A stretch of 64,000 nucleotides of DNA from Porphyrobacter sp. (GTDB taxonomy: Bacteria; Pseudomonadota; Alphaproteobacteria; Sphingomonadales; Sphingomonadaceae). The notes under the pieces are model-generated. The model was not told the origin of the DNA and did not search any database. It saw only the letters and a program-made list of their open reading frames with translations. A program made the translations under genes and the position numbers. The stretch lies in the NCBI GenBank assembly GCA_017744315.1, contig JAGIBN010000001.1, positions 434,001 through 498,000 of the forward strand, given 5' to 3'. This document shows, in pieces, positions 2,329-64,000 of the stretch. The first letter of the stretch is position 1, and every line of letters begins with the position of its first letter.

Positions 2329-3552
2329 ATTACCGCGCCCCGTTCCGTTTCCGCTGCCTCACTTTCAAGCCACGTCAACGGCAAGGAACGCCCCTTCGGA
2401 CGGGCGCTGGTCTTCGCGCTGGCCGCTTCGGCGGGGCTGACGGTCGCCAACATCTATTACGGCCAGCCGATGCTCGGCCTGATGGAGCGCGACTTTTCGG
2501 GCGCGGCGATCACCTACGTCCCCACCGCGACCCAGCTCGGCTATGCGGCGGGCCTCTTGCTGCTGGTGCCGCTCGGCGACCTCCTGGAGCGCAAGCGCCT
2601 GATCGTGACGCAGTGCATCGCGCTGTCGGTGGCCCTGGCCCTGGTGGCCCTCGCGCCAACGGGTGGCACAGTGCTGGCCGCCTCGCTGCTGGTCGGACTG
2701 CTCGCTTCGGTCGCGCAGCAGATCGTTCCGCTCGCGGCCAACCTCGCGCCCGAGGAGAAACGCGGTGCAGTCGTCGGCACGGTCATGGCGGGACTGCTCT
2801 GCGGCATCCTCCTCAGCCGCACGCTGGCGGGTTTCGTCGGCGGCGCCTTCGGCTGGCGCGCGATGTTCTGGCTGGCCGTGCCGCTGGCACTGATGACCGC
2901 GGGACTCATGGCCTGGCAATTGCCCCGTAGCCACCCGCATCGCGGCGGGCCCGATCACCAAGGACTCGGTTATCTCGGCCTCATGGCCTCGCTGCGCGAC
3001 CTCTGGCGCGAGTTTCCCGCACTGCGCCTCGCCACTCTCACCCAGTGCACCCAGTTCGGCGTGTTCAGCGTGTTCTGGACGATCCTGGCGCTCCACCTGC
3101 AGGAGCCGCGCTTCGGCCTCGGCTCGCAAGTGGCGGGGCTGTTCGGCGTCCTCGGCGCCGCAGGCGTGCTGGCCGCGCCGATCGCCGGGCGCATCGCCGA
3201 CCGCCGTGGTCCCCACCCGGTGATCGTCGCCGCCAGCGCGATGACGCTGGTGTCGTGGCTGGTCTTCGGGTTCTGGACCTCGATCGTCGGGCTGATCGTG
3301 GGTGTGCTGCTGCTCGATTTCGCGATCCAGGCGAGCCAGATCTCCAACCAGAGCATCATCTACGCCCTGCGTCCCGAAGCGCGCTCGCGAATCAACACGG
3401 TCTACATGGCCTCGATGTTCCTCGCCGGGGCCGCCAGTTCGGGCGCGGCGACGGTGGTCTGGCATGGCTGGGGCTGGACCGGGGTTACGGTGCTGGGGGC
3501 CGGGATCGCGGCGCTTGGGCTGGGTTTGCAGACGCTGCGCGCAAAGAGGTGA
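2329..3552 (+). CDS. MFS transporter with unresolved start codon
   Basis: A twelve-helix MFS permease of the YP_QP-type drug/metabolite exporter group. It shows TVANIYYGQPML at the end of helix 1, TQLGYAAGLLLLVPLGD in helix 2 and a GRIADRRGP loop midway. The first ATG (2470) falls after the conserved YYGQP, so starting there would delete helix 1. The frame is open from 2227 but holds no ATG, GTG or TTG before 2470. The best candidate is ATT at 2329, six bases after AAGGAA, giving MTAPRSVSAASL and 407 residues. A sequencing frameshift joining the ATG at 2300 in another frame is the alternative. Substrate unknown. Confidence 0.82.
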   Translation: MTAPRSVSAASLSSHVNGKERPFGRALVFALAASAGLTVANIYYGQPMLGLMERDFSGAAITYVPTATQLGYAAGLLLLVPLGDLLERKRLIVTQCIALSVALALVALAPTGGTVLAASLLVGLLASVAQQIVPLAANLAPEEKRGAVVGTVMAGLLCGILLSRTLAGFVGGAFGWRAMFWLAVPLALMTAGLMAWQLPRSHPHRGGPDHQGLGYLGLMASLRDLWREFPALRLATLTQCTQFGVFSVFWTILALHLQEPRFGLGSQVAGLFGVLGAAGVLAAPIAGRIADRRGPHPVIVAASAMTLVSWLVFGFWTSIVGLIVGVLLLDFAIQASQISNQSIIYALRPEARSRINTVYMASMFLAGAASSGAATVVWHGWGWTGVTVLGAGIAALGLGLQTLRAKR

Positions 3553-3557
3553 AGGGG

Positions 3558-3748
3558 AAGACCCGGGGGATGATCCCCCGGACCCTCGGAATGTCGTCGT
3601 TGTGCGCTACCTATCCGGTGTGCGCTCCCTGCGGCGCAGCCAATAAGTCTCCCGACGCAGCCATGGGCGCACGAGGCAGTCGGTCCGCGTGACCTGGACG
3701 GTAATGGGGGTGCAGGGGGGCTATGCTCCCCTGCTTTTCCTTTTCTTG
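3558..3748. repeat. Dispersed 190-bp intergenic element, copy 1
   Basis: This copy lies between convergent genes (MFS and oxyR). It opens with a perfect hairpin (CCGGGGGAT-G-ATCCCCCGG, 3563-3581), followed by GACCCTCGGAATGTC. Next comes a core bounded by imperfect inverted repeats, then GGGGGTGCAG and a second hairpin (GCAGGGG/CCCCTGC, 3712-3734) with a T-rich tail that looks like a rho-independent terminator. The core is in the same orientation as copy 2 and inverted relative to copy 3. No protein frame is convincing here. Confidence 0.85.
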
Positions 3749-3752
3749 AAAA

Positions 3753-4649
3753 CTACCCAGCCCGAAGCTCATCCGCGAGCAGACGAAACTCCTCCGCACG
3801 CGGCGAATTCTTGCGCCAGACCAGAGCGATCTCGCGATTGGCGTTAGGCGAGAGCAGCGGCCGGGCGACGACATTGGTGCCGTTGAGGATGCCCGCGTCG
3901 ATCGCCATTTCCGGCAGCATCGTCAGGCCCAGCCCGTTGTCGACCATCTGCACCAGAGTGTGCAGCGAGGTGCCGATCATCGTCGCCGAGGCGCGCAGTT
4001 CCGGGCGGTTGCAAGCCGCCAGCGCGTGGTCCTTCAGGCAGTGTCCGTCTTCCAGCAGGAGCAGGCGGTGCTCGTCGATCACTTCCGGGCCGACTTCGGC
4101 GGGCGGGTTGCGCGGGTCGTCGTTGGGGAAGGCCACGAAGAAGGCGTCGAGCTCGATCGTCTCCTTGTCCACTTCGCCGGTGGCGTATGGCAGGGCGAGC
4201 AGCACGCAGTCGGCGCGGCCGTGGTGCAGCGATTCGATCGCGGCCTGGCTCGGTTCCTCGCGCAGGAACAGCTTGAGGTTCGGGCGCTCGCGGCGCAGGC
4301 GCGGCAGCATCCGGGGGAGCAGGAAGGGCGCGATCGTCGGGATCACGCTCATGCGCACTTCGCCGGAGAGCGGCTTGCCGCTGGACTGCACGAGGTCGGA
4401 GAGTTCCTCGGTCTCGCGCAGGATGCGGTGGGCCTTGGCGACGACCGCGTTACCCAGCGGCGTGAAGCGCACCGCGCGCTTGGTGCGCTCTACCAGCGTG
4501 ACGCCGAGCAGCGCTTCCAGATCGCGCAGGCCTGCCGAAAGCGTGGACTGCGACACGAAACAGGCATCGGCGGCGCGGCCGAAATGCCCGTGTTCGTGCA
4601 GGGCGACGAGGTACTGGAGCTGCTTGAGCGTGGGCTGGTAGACGGTCAC
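3753..4649 (-). CDS. oxyR: Hydrogen-peroxide-sensing LysR-type regulator OxyR
   Basis: A 298-residue LysR regulator with an N-terminal winged HTH (residues about 6-65, GRAADACFVSQSTLSAGLRDLE). The effector domain carries the OxyR redox pair: DGHC (C204) and C213, nine residues apart as in E. coli C199/C208, within LLLLEDGHCLKDHALAAC. It should activate peroxide-defence genes when the disulfide forms. The start is GTG at 4649, overlapping the TGA of rnd (GTGA), so it is probably translated by coupling with rnd. No catalase or ahpC lies nearby, so its targets are elsewhere. Confidence in the OxyR assignment is high because both cysteines and their context are present. Confidence 0.93.
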   Translation of the reverse strand: MTVYQPTLKQLQYLVALHEHGHFGRAADACFVSQSTLSAGLRDLEALLGVTLVERTKRAVRFTPLGNAVVAKAHRILRETEELSDLVQSSGKPLSGEVRMSVIPTIAPFLLPRMLPRLRRERPNLKLFLREEPSQAAIESLHHGRADCVLLALPYATGEVDKETIELDAFFVAFPNDDPRNPPAEVGPEVIDEHRLLLLEDGHCLKDHALAACNRPELRASATMIGTSLHTLVQMVDNGLGLTMLPEMAIDAGILNGTNVVARPLLSPNANREIALVWRKNSPRAEEFRLLADELRAG

Positions 4650-12261: not shown

Positions 12262-12338
12262 GGCGGAGTAGCTCAGCTGGTTAGAGCAGCGGAATCATAA
12301 TCCGCGTGTCGGGGGTTCGAGTCCCTCCTCCGCTACCA
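12262..12338 (+). tRNA. tRNA-Met (CAU anticodon, elongator type)
   Basis: A 77-nt cloverleaf with encoded CCA. The acceptor arm is GGCGGAG/CTCCGCT (a G-U at 1-72), the D-loop is AGCTCAGCTGGTTAGAGC and the T-arm GGGGGTTCGAGTCCCTC. The anticodon stem GCGGA/TCCGC encloses ATCATAA, so the anticodon is CAT. It resembles alphaproteobacterial elongator tRNA-Met and lacks initiator features. A lysidine-modified tRNA-Ile2 shares the anticodon and cannot be fully excluded by eye. Confidence 0.93.
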
Positions 12339-19120: not shown

Positions 19121-19219
19121 GCGGCCCAATCCCCGGGGGGCCGCTCATGCGCGGCTGAGAGGTGGTCAGCAGACCACGACCCGCTGAACCTGATCCGGTT
19201 GACACCGGCGTAGGGAGGG
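19121..19219 (+). ncRNA. TPP riboswitch (THI element) aptamer
   Basis: The conserved TPP-sensing core is present in order. CGGGGGGCC is followed by P2 (GCCGC/GCGGC) and CTGAGA (19155-19160), a P3 hairpin (GTGGTC/GACCAC), then ACCCGCTGAACCTGATC, the CCGG/CCGG stem and GCGTAGGGA (to 19216). The exact closing P1 pairing is ambiguous, with GCCC/GGGC the best candidate. It leads directly into a TonB receptor, kinase and PnuT-type permease, so all three should respond to thiamine diphosphate. Confidence 0.93.
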
Positions 19220-19268
19220 CTGGCGGCAGAGCGTCCGTTGTCCCTCCGACTGGAGCGGACGAAAGACG
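19213..19268 (+). promoter_or_regulatory. Riboswitch expression platform (anti-SD switch)
   Basis: GGAGGG at 19214-19219, overlapping the 3' end of the aptamer, can pair with CCCTCC at 19242-19247. Alternatively CTCC (19244-19247) pairs with GGAG (19252-19255), the likely Shine-Dalgarno, with GTCCG/CGGAC extending the stem. The first pairing frees the RBS and the second hides it. This suggests translational control with TPP binding favouring the closed state. This is inference from base pairing. Confidence 0.55.
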
Positions 19269-37663: not shown

Positions 37664-38047
37664 ATGGCACATGGAACCGCCCATATCGGCGCCCCCCCCT
37701 GGCGCACCGATATCGTCGTCGGCGGCCACGCGATCACCGCCGACGAACCGGCAGCACTCGGCGGGCAAGGCGCAGGACCGGCGCCCTATGACCTGCTGCT
37801 CGCCAGCCTCGGCGCCTGCACGGCGATTACTTTGAAGATGTATGCGGCCCGCAAGGGCTGGCCGCTGGTCTCGGTCGATGTGGACTTGCGGCTCAAAGGT
37901 TCGAAGGAAGAGATGCATATCGAGCGCAAGCTCTCGATCGTCGGGCTGGATGAGGAGCAGAAGGCCCGTCTTGCCGATATCGCCGAGCGGACGCCGGTTA
38001 CTTTGACTTTGAAGTCGGGGCTCGGGATCGAGACGGAACTGGTTTGA
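37664..38047 (+). CDS. OsmC-family protein with one cysteine
   Basis: A 127-residue OsmC/YhfA-like protein. The first conserved cysteine is in LLLASLGACTAITLKMYAARKG. The position of the second peroxidatic cysteine (usually CPV) reads RTPVTLTL here, so a thiol-peroxidase mechanism needing two cysteines is unlikely without another thiol. It ends the pirin operon, which as a group suggests oxidative or electrophile stress. It is followed by repeat copy 2. Confidence 0.87.
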   Translation: MAHGTAHIGAPPWRTDIVVGGHAITADEPAALGGQGAGPAPYDLLLASLGACTAITLKMYAARKGWPLVSVDVDLRLKGSKEEMHIERKLSIVGLDEEQKARLADIAERTPVTLTLKSGLGIETELV

Positions 38048-38052
38048 AGGTA

Positions 38053-38247
38053 AGAGGAAGTCCTGGGGGATGATCCCCCAGACCCTCGGAATGTCACCGT
38101 TGCGCGCCACCTATCGGTATTGCGCTCCTTGCGGCGCAGCCAATATGTCTCCCGACGCAGCCATGAGCGCACAACGGATAGGCTGGGTGTGACCTAGACG
38201 GTATCGGGGGTGCAGGGGGGCTATGCTCCCCTGCTTTTCTTTTTCTT
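38053..38247. repeat. Dispersed 190-bp intergenic element, copy 2
   Basis: This copy lies between convergent osmC-like and dctD genes. Hairpin A is CTGGGGGAT-G-ATCCCCCAG (38063-38081) and hairpin B is GCAGGGG/CCCCTGC (38212-38234), followed by TTTTCTTTTTCTT. The core, about 38101-38190, is bounded by an imperfect inverted repeat (left CTATCGGTATTGCGCTC, right GAGCGCACAACGGATAG). It is in the same core orientation as copy 1. Confidence 0.87.
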
Positions 38248-38259
38248 CCGCCTGCTATT

Positions 38260-39570
38260 TCACCCCTTTTGGCGCAAAGCCCCCAGATCGATCCCGTGCT
38301 TGTTCACTTTATAGTAGAACGTCTTGCGCGGCAGATCGAGCGAGCGGATGGCGGCGCCGATCTCTCCGTTCGCAGCCAGCACGGCGGCGACGATTTCCTC
38401 CCGTTCGAAGGCGTCGACGCGCTCGGTCAGGCCTTTGGCTGCCGAGGGTGACGGCGTGGGCGTGGATTCGCCGAGGCCCAGCACGAACTGTTCCGCGAAA
38501 TTGGCGAGTTCGCGCACGTTGCCCGGCCACTCGTGGCGTTCCAGCATCGTGCGCACTGCTGCGCTTACCGGGGGCAGGTCGCGGCCGGTGCGGCGGGCGG
38601 CGTCTCCGGCAAAGCGGGCGAAGAGGGGGGCAATGTCCGCGCGGCGTTCGCGCAGGGGCGGCACGGAGAGGCGCATCGCGGCGAGGCGGTAGAACAGCGG
38701 CGGGAGGAGCGCGGGGGGCGGGCCTTCGGCGGTATTCTGACTGGTGGAGATCACGCGCACGTCGATCGGCATGGCCTCGTCGCGGCGGCGCAGCACGCGC
38801 TGTTCGATGAAGGGCAGCAAGCGCTCTTGGAGGTGCGCGGGGGCGCGGTCGATATCGTCGAGATAGAGCGTGCCGCGCTGGGCGGCGGCGAGGCCGGGTT
38901 CGGCGTGGCCGTTCGCTGCGAACAGCGGCTCTGCGAGCGTTTCCGGCATTCCGGCGCAGGCGAGGGGCAGGAAGCGGTGGCGTGCGCGTTTGCCGGTGCG
39001 GTGGATCAGGCGGGCGAGGAGGTCCTTGCCGGTGCCGGTTTCGCCTTCGATGAAGAGGTCGATATCGGCATTGGCGAGCACCGGGATCATCTCGCGCAGG
39101 CGGCGGATGGCCGGGCTTTCGCCGAGGAAGACGGGGGCATCGTCGGCCTCGGCCAGTGCGCGCAGGCGGCGGTTATCGAGCGTCAGGGCGCGGGCGGTGG
39201 CGGCGCGGTTGACGGCGGCAATCAGGGTGTCGGGCGCGAAGGGCTTGGTCAGGAAGTCCCAGGCCCCGGCCTTGAGCATTTGCACCGCCATCTCGATATC
39301 GCCGTGGCCGGTGACGAGGATCACCGGCAGTTCGGGGTCGCGCTCGTGAAGCTGGCGGAACAGGTCGATGCCGGAAATCTGCGGCATGCGCACGTCGGTG
39401 ACGACGACGCCGGGAAAATCGGCGGTGATGGCGGCGAGGGCCGGGGGAGCGGCGGGGAAGCTTTCCACTTCGAACCCGGCGAGGCGGAGAAGCTGCGCGG
39501 TCGAGCGGGCGAGGTCCTCGTCATCCTCGACGAGGGCGATGCGGGGGGCGATCCGGGGGGCGGCTTCCAT
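38260..39570 (-). CDS. dctD: DctD-type response regulator lacking the GAFTGA loop
   Basis: 436 residues: a receiver domain (phospho-acceptor D59 in VVVTDVRMP), an AAA+ domain (Walker A GETGTGKD at 176-183, Walker B GTLYLDDID, LFYRLAAMRLSVPPLRER) and a Fis-type HTH (AIRSLDLPRKTFYYKVNKHG). The segment between Walker A and B is shortened (LAEPLFAANGHAEPGLAAAQRGTLYL) and has no GAFTGA, the loop that contacts sigma-54. It overlaps dctB by one base. It should respond to C4-dicarboxylates and control dctA across the divergent promoter, perhaps not through sigma-54. Confidence 0.92.
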   Translation of the reverse strand: MEAAPRIAPRIALVEDDEDLARSTAQLLRLAGFEVESFPAAPPALAAITADFPGVVVTDVRMPQISGIDLFRQLHERDPELPVILVTGHGDIEMAVQMLKAGAWDFLTKPFAPDTLIAAVNRAATARALTLDNRRLRALAEADDAPVFLGESPAIRRLREMIPVLANADIDLFIEGETGTGKDLLARLIHRTGKRARHRFLPLACAGMPETLAEPLFAANGHAEPGLAAAQRGTLYLDDIDRAPAHLQERLLPFIEQRVLRRRDEAMPIDVRVISTSQNTAEGPPPALLPPLFYRLAAMRLSVPPLRERRADIAPLFARFAGDAARRTGRDLPPVSAAVRTMLERHEWPGNVRELANFAEQFVLGLGESTPTPSPSAAKGLTERVDAFEREEIVAAVLAANGEIGAAIRSLDLPRKTFYYKVNKHGIDLGALRQKG

Positions 39571-50150: not shown

Positions 50151-50595
<445 letters not shown>

Positions 50596-60587: not shown

Positions 60588-61382
60588 TCAAGTTCCCCGC
60601 GTGTCGCCCCAGATATGGATGTGCAGGCGGTCGGTGAAGCGATAACCTTCCTGCGTGCAGATGTCCGAGAGCCATCCCGACCGCTGCCGGATGACATCGC
60701 TGGAGCGGCCCTCCGGCATCAGGAATATCCGCTCGGCGGGGATATTGTAGCGCTCTTTCAGCGCGCGGACCTCATCGACGTCGGCAGGCTCGGCCACCAC
60801 GAACTTGAAATAAGCGCGCGGATCGGCGGCCCAGGCATCGAGCCGCTCGGGCACCAGCGCCAGTTCCGCCGGATTGCCGCTGTGCGAGAGCTTCGGGCTG
60901 ACATTGTACTGCTGCACCCGCGCATCGAGGCTGGCATGCGGCGCGACCGAGCCGTTGGTCTCGATCTCGACATGCATCCCCGGCCGGGCCTCGTCGAGCG
61001 CCGCCAGCATCCGCGCCAGTTGCGGCCCCTGAAGCAGCGGCTCGCCGCCGGTGATGACCAGACGGTCGGGCGGCAGATCCGCCACCATGCGCGCCACCTC
61101 GGATTCCTCGGCCATGACCTGATTGGCCTTGCGTTCGAATGCGAGCTCGTCGCGGTGGAAGCGGTTATCGCCCGTAAAGCGCCACGTATACGCAGTGTCG
61201 CACCACTGGCAGGCGAGATTGCAGCGCGACAGCCGCACGAAGGTGCTCGGGCGCCCCATGCTGGCGCCTTCGCCCTGAAGTGAAGCGAAGACTTCGGGTT
61301 CGCCGGGAGTGGTGGTGGCAAGCGCAAGCGTCACGGATGGTCTCGAATGCAAGGTTACGGTTTTGAAGGGTGAGGTTGACAC
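60588..61382 (-). CDS. queE: 7-carboxy-7-deazaguanine synthase
   Basis: A radical-SAM enzyme of queuosine and 7-deazaguanine synthesis, turning carboxytetrahydropterin into CDG. 264 residues with the cluster motif C54-x3-C58-x2-C61 (RCNLACQWCDTAY), ASLQGEGASMGRPSTFVRL upstream, and LVITGGEPLLQ and EIETNGS behind. GTG at 61382 and GTG at 61334 (VTLALATTTPGEP) are both possible starts; homology begins after the second. It is upstream of and probably co-transcribed with the MATE gene. No queC/queD is in view. Confidence 0.92.
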   Translation of the reverse strand: MSTSPFKTVTLHSRPSVTLALATTTPGEPEVFASLQGEGASMGRPSTFVRLSRCNLACQWCDTAYTWRFTGDNRFHRDELAFERKANQVMAEESEVARMVADLPPDRLVITGGEPLLQGPQLARMLAALDEARPGMHVEIETNGSVAPHASLDARVQQYNVSPKLSHSGNPAELALVPERLDAWAADPRAYFKFVVAEPADVDEVRALKERYNIPAERIFLMPEGRSSDVIRQRSGWLSDICTQEGYRFTDRLHIHIWGDTRGT

Positions 61383-61512
61383 AGTTTACACGGTCCAGAG
61401 GAAAAGTGTCACCTTGCGTCGGAGGTGTCACCTTGTGGCTGGTGTCGTGGAGAAAGGGTAGGGCGTTCACGCGCGCGAACGTGTCAGATGCGGGCGGTGT
61501 AGGAAAATAAAA
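61383..61512. promoter_or_regulatory. queE upstream region with spaced direct repeats
   Basis: GTGTCACCTTG occurs at 61406 and again at 61425, 19 bases apart (about two helical turns), with a partial GGTGTCGTGG after. The AGTTTACACGG next to the GTG start shares GTTTACAC with the palindrome after the tRNA at 12373. The repeats could be a regulator site for queE. No gene is seen in this stretch; the rest of the intergenic gap to valS is repeat copy 3. Confidence 0.35.
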
Positions 61513-61703
61513 AAGTCCTGGGGGATGATCCCCCAGACCCTCGGAATGTCTGCGTCGCGCCCGGCCTAGCCGTTTCGCGCCCACTGAGAGCCGGGAGACA
61601 AAATAGCCTGCGGCGGCAAGGAGCGCACTACGAGGCTGCGCGCGTGCCTTAGACGGTATTGGGGGTGCAGGGGGTGTTGACCCCCTGCTTTTCCCTTTGT
61701 CTT
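61513..61703. repeat. Dispersed 190-bp intergenic element, copy 3 (core inverted)
   Basis: This copy lies between the 3' end of valS and the queE upstream region. Hairpin A (CTGGGGGAT-G-ATCCCCCAG, 61518-61536) and hairpin B (GCAGGGGG/CCCCCTGC, 61667-61688) have the same orientation as in copies 1 and 2. The core between them matches the other copies only as its reverse complement (GGGAGACAAAATAGCC here against GGC...ATATGTCTCCC there). On the minus strand hairpin A is followed by a T-run (CTTTTTTATTTTCC), making a good valS terminator. Confidence 0.88.
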
Positions 61704-64000
61704 AACCCAACCGCGCCAGCGCCGCAGCCAGACGCTCCGCTTCGGCCGAATGGTGCGCATGGTCGGCGCGGGCTTTGTCGATCGCCTCGGGCTTGGCCTT
61801 CTCGACGAAGGCCGGGTTGCCCAGGCGCTTGTCGAGCGAGTCCCGTTCCTTGACCGAAGCGGCCATGGCCTTTTCCAGACGGGCCTTCTCGGCAGCGATG
61901 TCGATCACGCCTTCCAGCGGAATCGCCAGCGTCGCGTCGCCTGCGCCCACCTGCATGGCGGCACCGGCCGGAGCCGCTTCGAACACGATTGCATCGAGGC
62001 GGGCCAGACGGTCGATCACGGTGCCGTTACGACCGATCACCGCGCGGGTCGCGTCCGAGGGATTGGCGACATAGGCGGTAAGGCGCGCGCCCGGCGCGAT
62101 GCCGAGTTCGGACTTGGCGCCGCGGAGGTTGCCGATCAGCGCGATCAGCCATTCGACCTCGGCCTTGGCTTCGGCGTCCACCGAGGCTTCCGGCGCGGGC
62201 CATGCGGCAACGATCAGGTCCTGATCGCGGCTGCCCATCTTGCTCCACAGCTCTTCCGTGACGAAGGGCATGAAGGGGTGGAGCATGACGAGGATCTGGT
62301 CGAGCACCCAGCCGGCGACGGCCTTGGTCTCTTCGTCGAAGTTGCCCTTGATCAGTTCGATGTACCAGTCGCAGAACTGGTTCCACACGAAGTGGTAGAT
62401 CGCGTTGGCGGCCGCGTCGAAGCGCAGGTCGGCCATGGCCTTGTCCAGCGCGGCGACGGTTTCGACGACTTCGCCGATGATCCACTTGTTGACCGCCGTG
62501 GTCGCCTTGGGGGCGGCGACCGAGGTGCTGGCGACGATGCCGTTGGACTGGCAGAAACGCGCGGCGTTCCACAGCTTCGTGGCGAAGTTGCGGTAACCTT
62601 CGACGCGCTTTTCATCCATCTTCACGTCGCGGCCCTGGCTTTCCATGGCGGCCATGAAGAAGCGCAGCGCGTCGGCGCCGTACTTGTCGATCAGGCCCAG
62701 CGGATCGACCACGTTGCCCTTGGACTTCGACATCTTCTGGCCGTCGGCAGCGCGCACCAGACCATGGAGGTAGAGCCGCTTCCACGGCACTTCCTTCATG
62801 AAGTGAATGCCCTGCATGGCCATGCGCGCATCCCAGAAGAACAGGATGTCGAAGCCGGAAACGAGCAGGTCGTTCGGGTAGTGCTTCTTCAGCAGCGGGG
62901 CGTCTTCATCAGGCCAGCCGAGCGTGGCGAAAGGCCAGAGCGCGGAGGAGAACCAGGTGTCCAGCACGTCCTCGTCGCGGGTCAGCTTCTTGTTGCCGGC
63001 CTGCGCCTGTGCTTCTTCCTCGGTTTCGGCGACGAAGATTTCGCCGTCCTCGCTGAACCACGCCGGGATGCGGTGGCCCCACCAGAGCTGGCGCGAGACG
63101 CACCAGGGCTGGATGTTTTCCATCCAGTTGAAGAAGGTCTTTTCCCAGCTCTTCGGGACGATCTCGATCGCGCCGGAGCGGACGGCTTCCATCGGCGGCC
63201 CGGCCAGCGTCTGCGCGTCGACGTACCACTGGTCGGTCAGCCAGGGTTCGATCACCACGCCGCTGCGGTCGCCGTAGGGGGTCTGGATCACGCGGTCCTC
63301 GACCTTTTCGAGCAGGCCGTCGTCATCGAGGAACTGGACGATGGCCTTGCGGGCCTCGAAGCGGTCCATGCCGATGAACTGCGGCGGCACGAGGCCGTCC
63401 TGCGTCTGGCAGACATGAGCATCGGCATCGAGCATGTTGAGCATGTCGCCGGCCTTGAAGCCCGCACGCTTGCCGACCTCGAAGTCGTTGAAGTCATGAC
63501 CCGGCGTGATCTTCACCGCGCCCGAACCGAGTTCGGGATCGGCGTGCTCGTCGGCGACGATGGGGATTTCGCGGCCGGTGAGGGGCAGGGTGACGGTGGC
63601 GCCGCGCGCCAGCAGGTCCTTGTAGCGCTCGTCCTCGGGATTAACCGCGACGGCCATGTCGGCCAGCATCGTTTCCGGGCGGGTGGTGGCGACGTGGATG
63701 TAGCCCGAACCGTCCGACAGCGGGTACTTGATGTGCCAGAAGTGGCCGTTGGTTTCGCGCGTCTCGACCTCGAGGTCGGAAATGGCTGTGCGGAACTTCG
63801 GATCCCAGTTCACCAGGCGCTTGTCGCGATAGATCAGGCCCTGCTTGTGCAGGTCCACGAAGACCTTGACCACGGCCTTGGTGAAGTGTGGATCCATCGT
63901 GAACTGTTCGCGGCTCCAGTCCATCGAGCAGCCGAGGCGGCGCAGCTGGCCGGTGATGGTGCCGCCGGATTCGGCCTTCCACTCCCAGACCTTCTCGATG
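61702..64000 (-). CDS. valS: Valyl-tRNA synthetase (C-terminal part; 5' end outside window)
   Basis: About 765 residues of a class I synthetase are visible, entering the window at [13 protein letters not shown]. Seen in order: the editing domain ([37 protein letters not shown]), the catalytic half with [17 protein letters not shown] and [10 protein letters not shown] (KMSKS), the anticodon-binding helical domain, and a C-terminal coiled-coil ([24 protein letters not shown]). The HIGH motif lies beyond the window. The ATG at 63924 in the ORF track is internal. TAA at 61702-61704; hairpin A of copy 3 probably terminates it. Confidence 0.97.

Follow-up and report, generated by a model that had tools for sequence, protein, structure and literature searches.

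The stretch of 64,000 nucleotides that we analyzed (the window) lies on contig C9 of an assembly named Porphyrobacter sp. and holds three copies of an intergenic element of ~185 bp, starting at positions 3556, 38056, and 61511. Copy 1 (3556 to 3740, plus strand, with a tail to ~3748; covariance-model match C9:437556-437740) sits between an MFS transporter gene (2470 to 3552, plus strand) and a convergent LysR-family regulator gene (3753 to 4649, minus strand). Copy 2 (38056 to 38240, plus strand) separates an OsmC-family gene (37664 to 38047, plus strand) from a convergent sigma-54 response regulator gene (38260 to 39570, minus strand). Copy 3 (61511 to 61694, plus strand) adjoins the stop codon of valS, the valyl-tRNA synthetase gene, which is read on the minus strand from 61702 to 64000 and continues beyond the window end; on its other side is a radical-SAM gene co-directional with valS (60588 to 61334, minus strand). 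A first-pass annotation had placed three copies with near-identical ends near 3558, 38053, and 61513, all at gene 3' ends and two of them between convergent genes, and both the positions and the gene context hold. The window also contains ordinary RNA features: RNase P RNA (50155-50595), a TPP riboswitch (19124-19233), and tRNA-Met (12262-12338).

The window copies resemble one another beyond chance (E = 4e-58 and 7e-26 in copy-versus-copy comparison), and their ends are much better conserved than their middle. They match a covariance model of the family with 217 bits (copy 2), 216 bits (copy 1), and 137 bits (copy 3). The word GACCCTCGGAATGTC is found exactly at 3581, 38081, and 61536, and an exact-word search returned no other mismatch-free occurrence. 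At the left end is a hairpin, GGGGGATGATCCCCC, with an outer flank of T...A in copies 2 and 3 and C...G in copy 1; the 17-mer once quoted for all three left hairpins is exact in copies 2 and 3, whereas copy 1 departs from it at this outer pair. Sequence and fold place the left hairpin of copy 1, CCGGGGGATGATCCCCCGG, at 3563 to 3581 (plus strand). Those of copies 2 and 3 (38062 to 38082 and 61517 to 61537) are terminator-like when read on the minus strand, with tails ACTTCCTCTT and ACTTTTTTAT, the latter in a position to serve valS. A second hairpin with a T-rich tail had been described at the other end, and all three copies have it (GCAGGGG...CCCCTGC). On the plus strand, it spans 3712 to 3734 in copy 1 (GCAGGGGGGCTATGCTCCCCTGC, then TTTTCCTTTT, from the terminator scan), 38212 to 38234 in copy 2 (tail TTTTCTTTTT), and 61667 to 61688 in copy 3 (tail TTTTCCCTTT).

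The interior of copy 3 (61548 to 61631; C9:495548-495631) is inverted relative to copies 1 and 2 and matches the copy 2 interior on the minus strand. The same flip between unchanged ends is carried by orthologs of copy 3 (L250, L252, L253, and L254), so the inversion predates those species; a locus in genome IC081 (L102) is a borderline further case. Two copy 3 orthologs (L251 and L254) have a palindrome of the CCTTCGACAAGCTCAGGA type within the left-hairpin loop, and a similar one lies in the right hairpin of L106.

Outside the window, the same assembly has two further full copies (C9:502191 and C9:596448) and a fragment (C9:541238), all on the plus strand of C9. Five full copies on one strand within C9 437-597 kb, and none in five genomes of the same genus, suggested a regional cluster with a position-specific function. 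We discarded this reading. For the DNA surrounding copy 2, identity is 88-90% with N. panipatense (G062) and N. lindaniclasticum (G063), and matching segments from the assembly's own genus reach at most 73%; C9:415-434 kb has a similar identity pattern. The opposite holds for C10:100-120 kb, also from this assembly: the genus mates G001 and G005 mostly match it at 83-89% identity, and Novosphingobium matches it less well. Furthermore, C9:397-447 kb has a syntenic counterpart in the assembly at C10:110-160 kb, with mostly 67-78% identity between the two. Judged by these comparisons, G000:C9:397000-615332, which includes the whole window, is DNA of the Novosphingobium panipatense/lindaniclasticum clade inside an assembly of another genus. 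The simplest reading is that a Novosphingobium fragment was probably joined into the assembly, by contamination or as a chimeric contig; the reported assembly contamination of 5.24%, or ~191 kb, is close to the 218 kb of C9 past 397 kb. A very large horizontal transfer would be a less simple source of the C9 397-615 kb stretch. The apparent clustering is not biology, because the C9 stretch is Novosphingobium DNA in the assembly of another genus, and copies lie on both strands in IC081.

The element is a family of dozens of copies in one branch of Novosphingobium. No match at E <= 0.001 was found in the five same-genus genomes and the other family and order genomes of our first sample, and a scan of 400 family genomes, drawn with few species per genus, gave weak matches only (<27 bits). 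When we scanned GTDB genomes for exact matches to the left hairpin word, many Novosphingobium genomes proved to carry full elements. With a covariance model built from 42 copies, nine Novosphingobium genomes yielded 8 to 106 matches each, with at most 150 candidates scored per genome; palindromic copies also contribute opposite-strand shadows to these counts. In IC081 (5.5 Mb), the model matched 60 times, shadows included, at ~35 distinct sites, always on the complete 3.9-Mb chromosome and never on the other 1.6 Mb. We found no element match among 72,556 plasmids and 50,697 phages, and with the IC081 matches all chromosomal we rejected spread by plasmids or phages. The proposal of an amplified element is thus borne out by a covariance model and genome searches of the kind it had called for. 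Rfam gave no match for copy 2 at E <= 1 and none at gathering cut-offs for the window copies. In the open-licence literature we found no paper on the family or the hairpin word, and an earlier description elsewhere is possible.

Copies inside one genome are typically ~70% identical, and several have orthologs in other species: copy 1 in one genome, copy 2 in two (N. panipatense and N. lindaniclasticum), copy 3 in five Novosphingobium genomes, and copy 4 in one. The family is therefore old. Near-identical copies (90-97.5%) occur in N. organovorum; in all other genomes, identity reaches at most 85%.

Copies are confined to the spaces between genes. We called genes with a home-made codon-usage ORF caller rather than from annotation. 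Among 83 copies with both flanks called, none overlapped a gene, 59 lay between convergent genes, 23 lay beside one gene 3' end, and a single copy lay beside none. Convergent pairs make up ~15% of contig gene pairs (binomial p = 2e-30 for the enrichment), and such p-values are rough because the copies include some orthologs and are not fully independent. On the complete IC081 chromosome, 23 of the 28 hmm matches were convergent and none fell in genes, with a few copies split by insertion counted twice. Mapping copies against gene orientation thus upholds the 3'-end preference noted at first, and the copies are neither limited to the original three nor scattered inside genes. Full-length convergent copies start a median of 7 bp from the upstream stop codon and end 11 bp before the downstream one; the element is therefore the entire spacer. 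Note that this stop-to-stop position is equally expected of a harmless insertion tolerated just at gene ends.

Terminator-like signals face outward at both ends of the element, as the first-pass annotation had proposed. We scored a hairpin with at least five T in the next eight bases. This was found at the right end of 44 of 69 copies (64%), at the left end on the other strand of 34 of 69 (49%), and at both ends of 23 of 69; of 400 random 75-mers, 7 (2%) scored. Window copies 2 and 3 are positive on both strands and copy 1 on the plus strand alone. The tails are pyrimidine-rich at most positions. The valS 3' end, where just the minus strand needs a stop, has ACTTTTTTATTTT as its minus-strand tail. 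Interruptions are common in the plus-strand tail (TTTTCCTT and TTCTTCCC), and this simple scan finds no terminator at roughly one-third of right ends and one-half of left ends; because of these interruptions and failures, termination may be partial or Rho-assisted. Minus-strand terminators are about as frequent in element-free convergent gaps (21/54).

Single copies fold far better than shuffled sequences (z = −6.0; −2.2 and −3.9; and −2.7 to −8.7 in 12 others). Predicted folds of 63 copies contain the left hairpin in 61, the right hairpin in 62, and a long core stem in 57. Such folds, that stem included, would be expected of a structured noncoding RNA, whether an sRNA or a cis-element, in which the whole fold is functional. 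We compared pairing energies after exchanging hairpin halves or core arms between copies. In the terminal hairpins, own-partner pairing beat swapped pairing (z = −8.8 left and −10.7 right; 0 of 3000 permutations), whereas core arms showed no own-partner preference (−39.3 kcal/mol own versus −39.4 swapped). Both terminal hairpins are kept by compensatory change and the palindromic core is not; in the N. lindaniclasticum ortholog of copy 1, for example, both sides of the outer left pair are changed (C-G versus T-A). Because the hairpin halves lie close together, subfamilies that spread as units could account for some of this own-partner preference. The core stem is inherited from the consensus rather than maintained, since own arms pair no better than swapped ones, and we rejected the core as a conserved RNA on the negative swap test. 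Cores are also variable: inverted in copy 3 and its orthologs, shortened in others, and interrupted by insertion in two IC081 copies. A promoter scan of the three window copies found nothing on the plus strand and a single weak match on the minus strand, in copy 2; the lack of an Rfam match even at E = 1 points the same way. The suggestion that the whole element is a conserved structured RNA is accordingly not supported, with compensatory maintenance limited to the two terminal hairpins, and we consider a functional whole fold exceedingly unlikely. Note that the RNAalifold consensus paired unrelated columns and served solely as a search model.

We consider it probable, from the sequence features above, that the element is a dispersed bidirectional intrinsic-terminator, or 3'-end, cassette. 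Most likely, it would work as a ready-made two-way transcription stop spread around the chromosome. On the plus strand, the proposed layout runs from a stop codon through a purine-rich spacer, the left hairpin, GACCCTCGGAATGTC, and the imperfectly palindromic core to GACGGTA, the right hairpin, the T-rich tail, and the complement of the opposing stop codon. After transcribing the plus-strand gene, polymerase would enter the element and halt at the right hairpin and its U-rich tail. Polymerase arriving from the opposing gene would meet the left hairpin on the other strand, with a pyrimidine-rich tail, and halt there. The structure left at both mRNA 3' ends would probably shield them against exonucleases, and convergent transcripts would probably be kept out of each other's gene. 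The core is apparently a spacer or palindrome of lesser importance.

Palindromic DNA found mainly at convergent junctions, where positive supercoils meet, could instead act at the DNA level as a putative site for gyrase, IHF, or a nucleoid protein that relieves supercoils, by analogy with what has been proposed for some E. coli BIMEs. We find this very doubtful, for compensatory conservation is seen in RNA-type hairpins that exit into T-rich tracts, and the copy 1 site in IC081, convergent with overlapping stop codons, carries no element.

Orthologous junctions differ among species in what they hold. At the copy 1 junction, there is an unrelated three-hairpin array in N. panipatense, a short spacer in PhB57, and the overlapping stop codons in IC081; the N. 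panipatense array (L244) has a similar layout of AAAATCCGCCGCAGGCGGATTTT, a long central stem, and GAAAATGCCCAGCAGGGCATTTTC. The copy 2 junction in PhB57 has a CGTCATTGCGAG...CTCGCAATGACG palindrome pair. At the copy 3 junction, IC081 and PhB165 carry CGTC-type repeats, which we provisionally assign to the REP class by tag alone. Because orthologous sites are empty or replaced, a junction can lack the element or carry other hairpin modules. One account of this turnover is that the element belongs to an exchangeable stop-to-stop 3'-end cassette, in which related species swap whole spacers at the same convergent junctions (the element, CGTC-type REP pairs, other hairpin triplets, or nothing) by spacer replacement other than classical transposition. 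We judge this account improbable.

Sites without the element are likewise expected if it is a miniature mobile element, MITE-like or REP-like, that persists only at gene 3' ends, where it is harmless, and whose terminator activity is incidental. The strictly intergenic, dispersed, many-copy distribution fits such an origin, as do the N. organovorum copies. Six of these (L039, L051, L108, L118, L121, and L130) are 90-97.5% identical and lie within a ~300-bp repeat with terminal inverted repeats GCNGCGTGGACAAATT. This repeat, the sole recent amplification, is most plausibly a MITE with a captured element copy, which argues against the mobile-element reading. The GCNGCGTGGACAAATT end also occurs in IC081, where it interrupts an element copy (L290). 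In the panipatense clade, the element is not bounded by terminal inverted repeats beyond its hairpins. The empty or replaced orthologous sites that we examined showed no recognizable target-site duplication and no shared junction. With only ~10 bp left to each stop codon, there is no space for inverted repeats or a duplication. The ~70% average identity and cross-species orthologs describe an old, mostly static family, and compensatory upkeep of the terminal hairpins would be needless for a parasite at old sites. Of the original description as a mobile or amplified element, amplification stands, and a dedicated mobility mechanism is not supported, given the ~70% likeness of copies and the absence of target duplication at the examined sites. 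We therefore think a miniature mobile element unlikely. The hairpins at both ends would loosely fit an IS200/IS605-derived element; the mixed strands in IC081 speak against it, and we set this candidate aside.

The two-way terminator cassette that we favor is close in role to REP/BIME and SPRITE, and the defining features tested place it in none of the known families compared. SPRITE is a dispersed intrinsic-terminator-like repeat, enriched near CDS 3' ends and between convergent genes and proposed to be a co-opted terminator (PMC3049150). It has the form of one long AT-rich stem, with a duplex of ~18 bp, one U-rich tract, and AAAA/TTTT ends (PMC3049150). The element shares this type and location, a likeness for which we claim no sequence relation, but has two separate G+C-rich hairpins facing outward around a palindromic core instead of a single AT-rich duplex. 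REP repeats form GTAG and CGTC super-families; each unit measures 20-40 bp and bears one of these two sequences as an unpaired tag, and conv-REPs of Sphingomonas wittichii lie <20 bp from both flanking ORF ends (PMC3733652). Like REP/BIME, the element is a high-copy, predominantly extragenic palindrome downstream of genes, and other Novosphingobium genomes have REP-type pairs at orthologous junctions. Among 72 copies, however, none has CGTC and one has GTAG within 8 bp of the left hairpin, and the ~185-bp unit has two unlike hairpins.

The element also recalls longer repeats. CcrM-associated intergenic repeats (CIRs) exceed 100 bp and have an inverted-repeat layout. CIRs of Caulobacter (Chen and Shapiro 2003, as summarized in PMC10969869) are alphaproteobacterial and strictly intergenic. 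The element is both of these but is not enriched in GANTC (0.76 per kb versus 1.59 in the background), and we ruled out identity with a CIR/CcrM repeat on this depletion. QMITE2 of Coxiella burnetii is ~190 bp long and mostly located in 3' untranslated regions, with REP-like truncated copies (PMC10969869). In size and 3'-end location the element is similar to it; unlike QMITE2 and other MITEs, the panipatense-clade element has no terminal inverted repeats outside the hairpins and no recognizable target duplication. ERIC is a palindromic intergenic repeat present in tens to hundreds of copies (PMC10969869). It likewise forms a multicopy family, but in other taxa, and the element has a terminator-like hairpin at either end. 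By sequence, copies 2 and 3 would qualify as bidirectional intrinsic terminators, with a hairpin and T-rich tract on both strands, as would the 23 of 69 family members scoring at both ends.

Novosphingobium thereby gains a countable family of probable two-way terminators, open to annotation and direct testing. The family makes testable whether REP-like repeats are kept at gene ends as selected 3'-end signals or because this is the sole harmless place. The separation is visible in the sequence: terminal hairpins are compensated, and the core diverges, inverts, and takes up insertions. A further use of the copies could be as compact insulators in pollutant-degrading Novosphingobium.

Rhodospirillales MAGs and Desulfovibrio carry the hairpin word GGGGGATGATCCCCCNGACC repeatedly, and it also occurs in Rhizobiales and on prophage-like contigs (L043, L044, L056, L142, and L154-L167). 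Outside Novosphingobium, it is often preceded by a second hairpin (GGGGC..GCCCC, GGACCCCGC), and a different composite element shares the word. Two copies on the IC081 chromosome, at 2783 kb (L288) and 3763 kb (L293), contain the same insert of ~260 bp with inverted ends of 30 bp or more, GTCGTAAACTCATAAACGGCACC. The insert sits at the CTAG of ACCTAGACGG, with CTAG on either side. CTAG density is 1.8 per kb in elements and 0.31 per kb around them.
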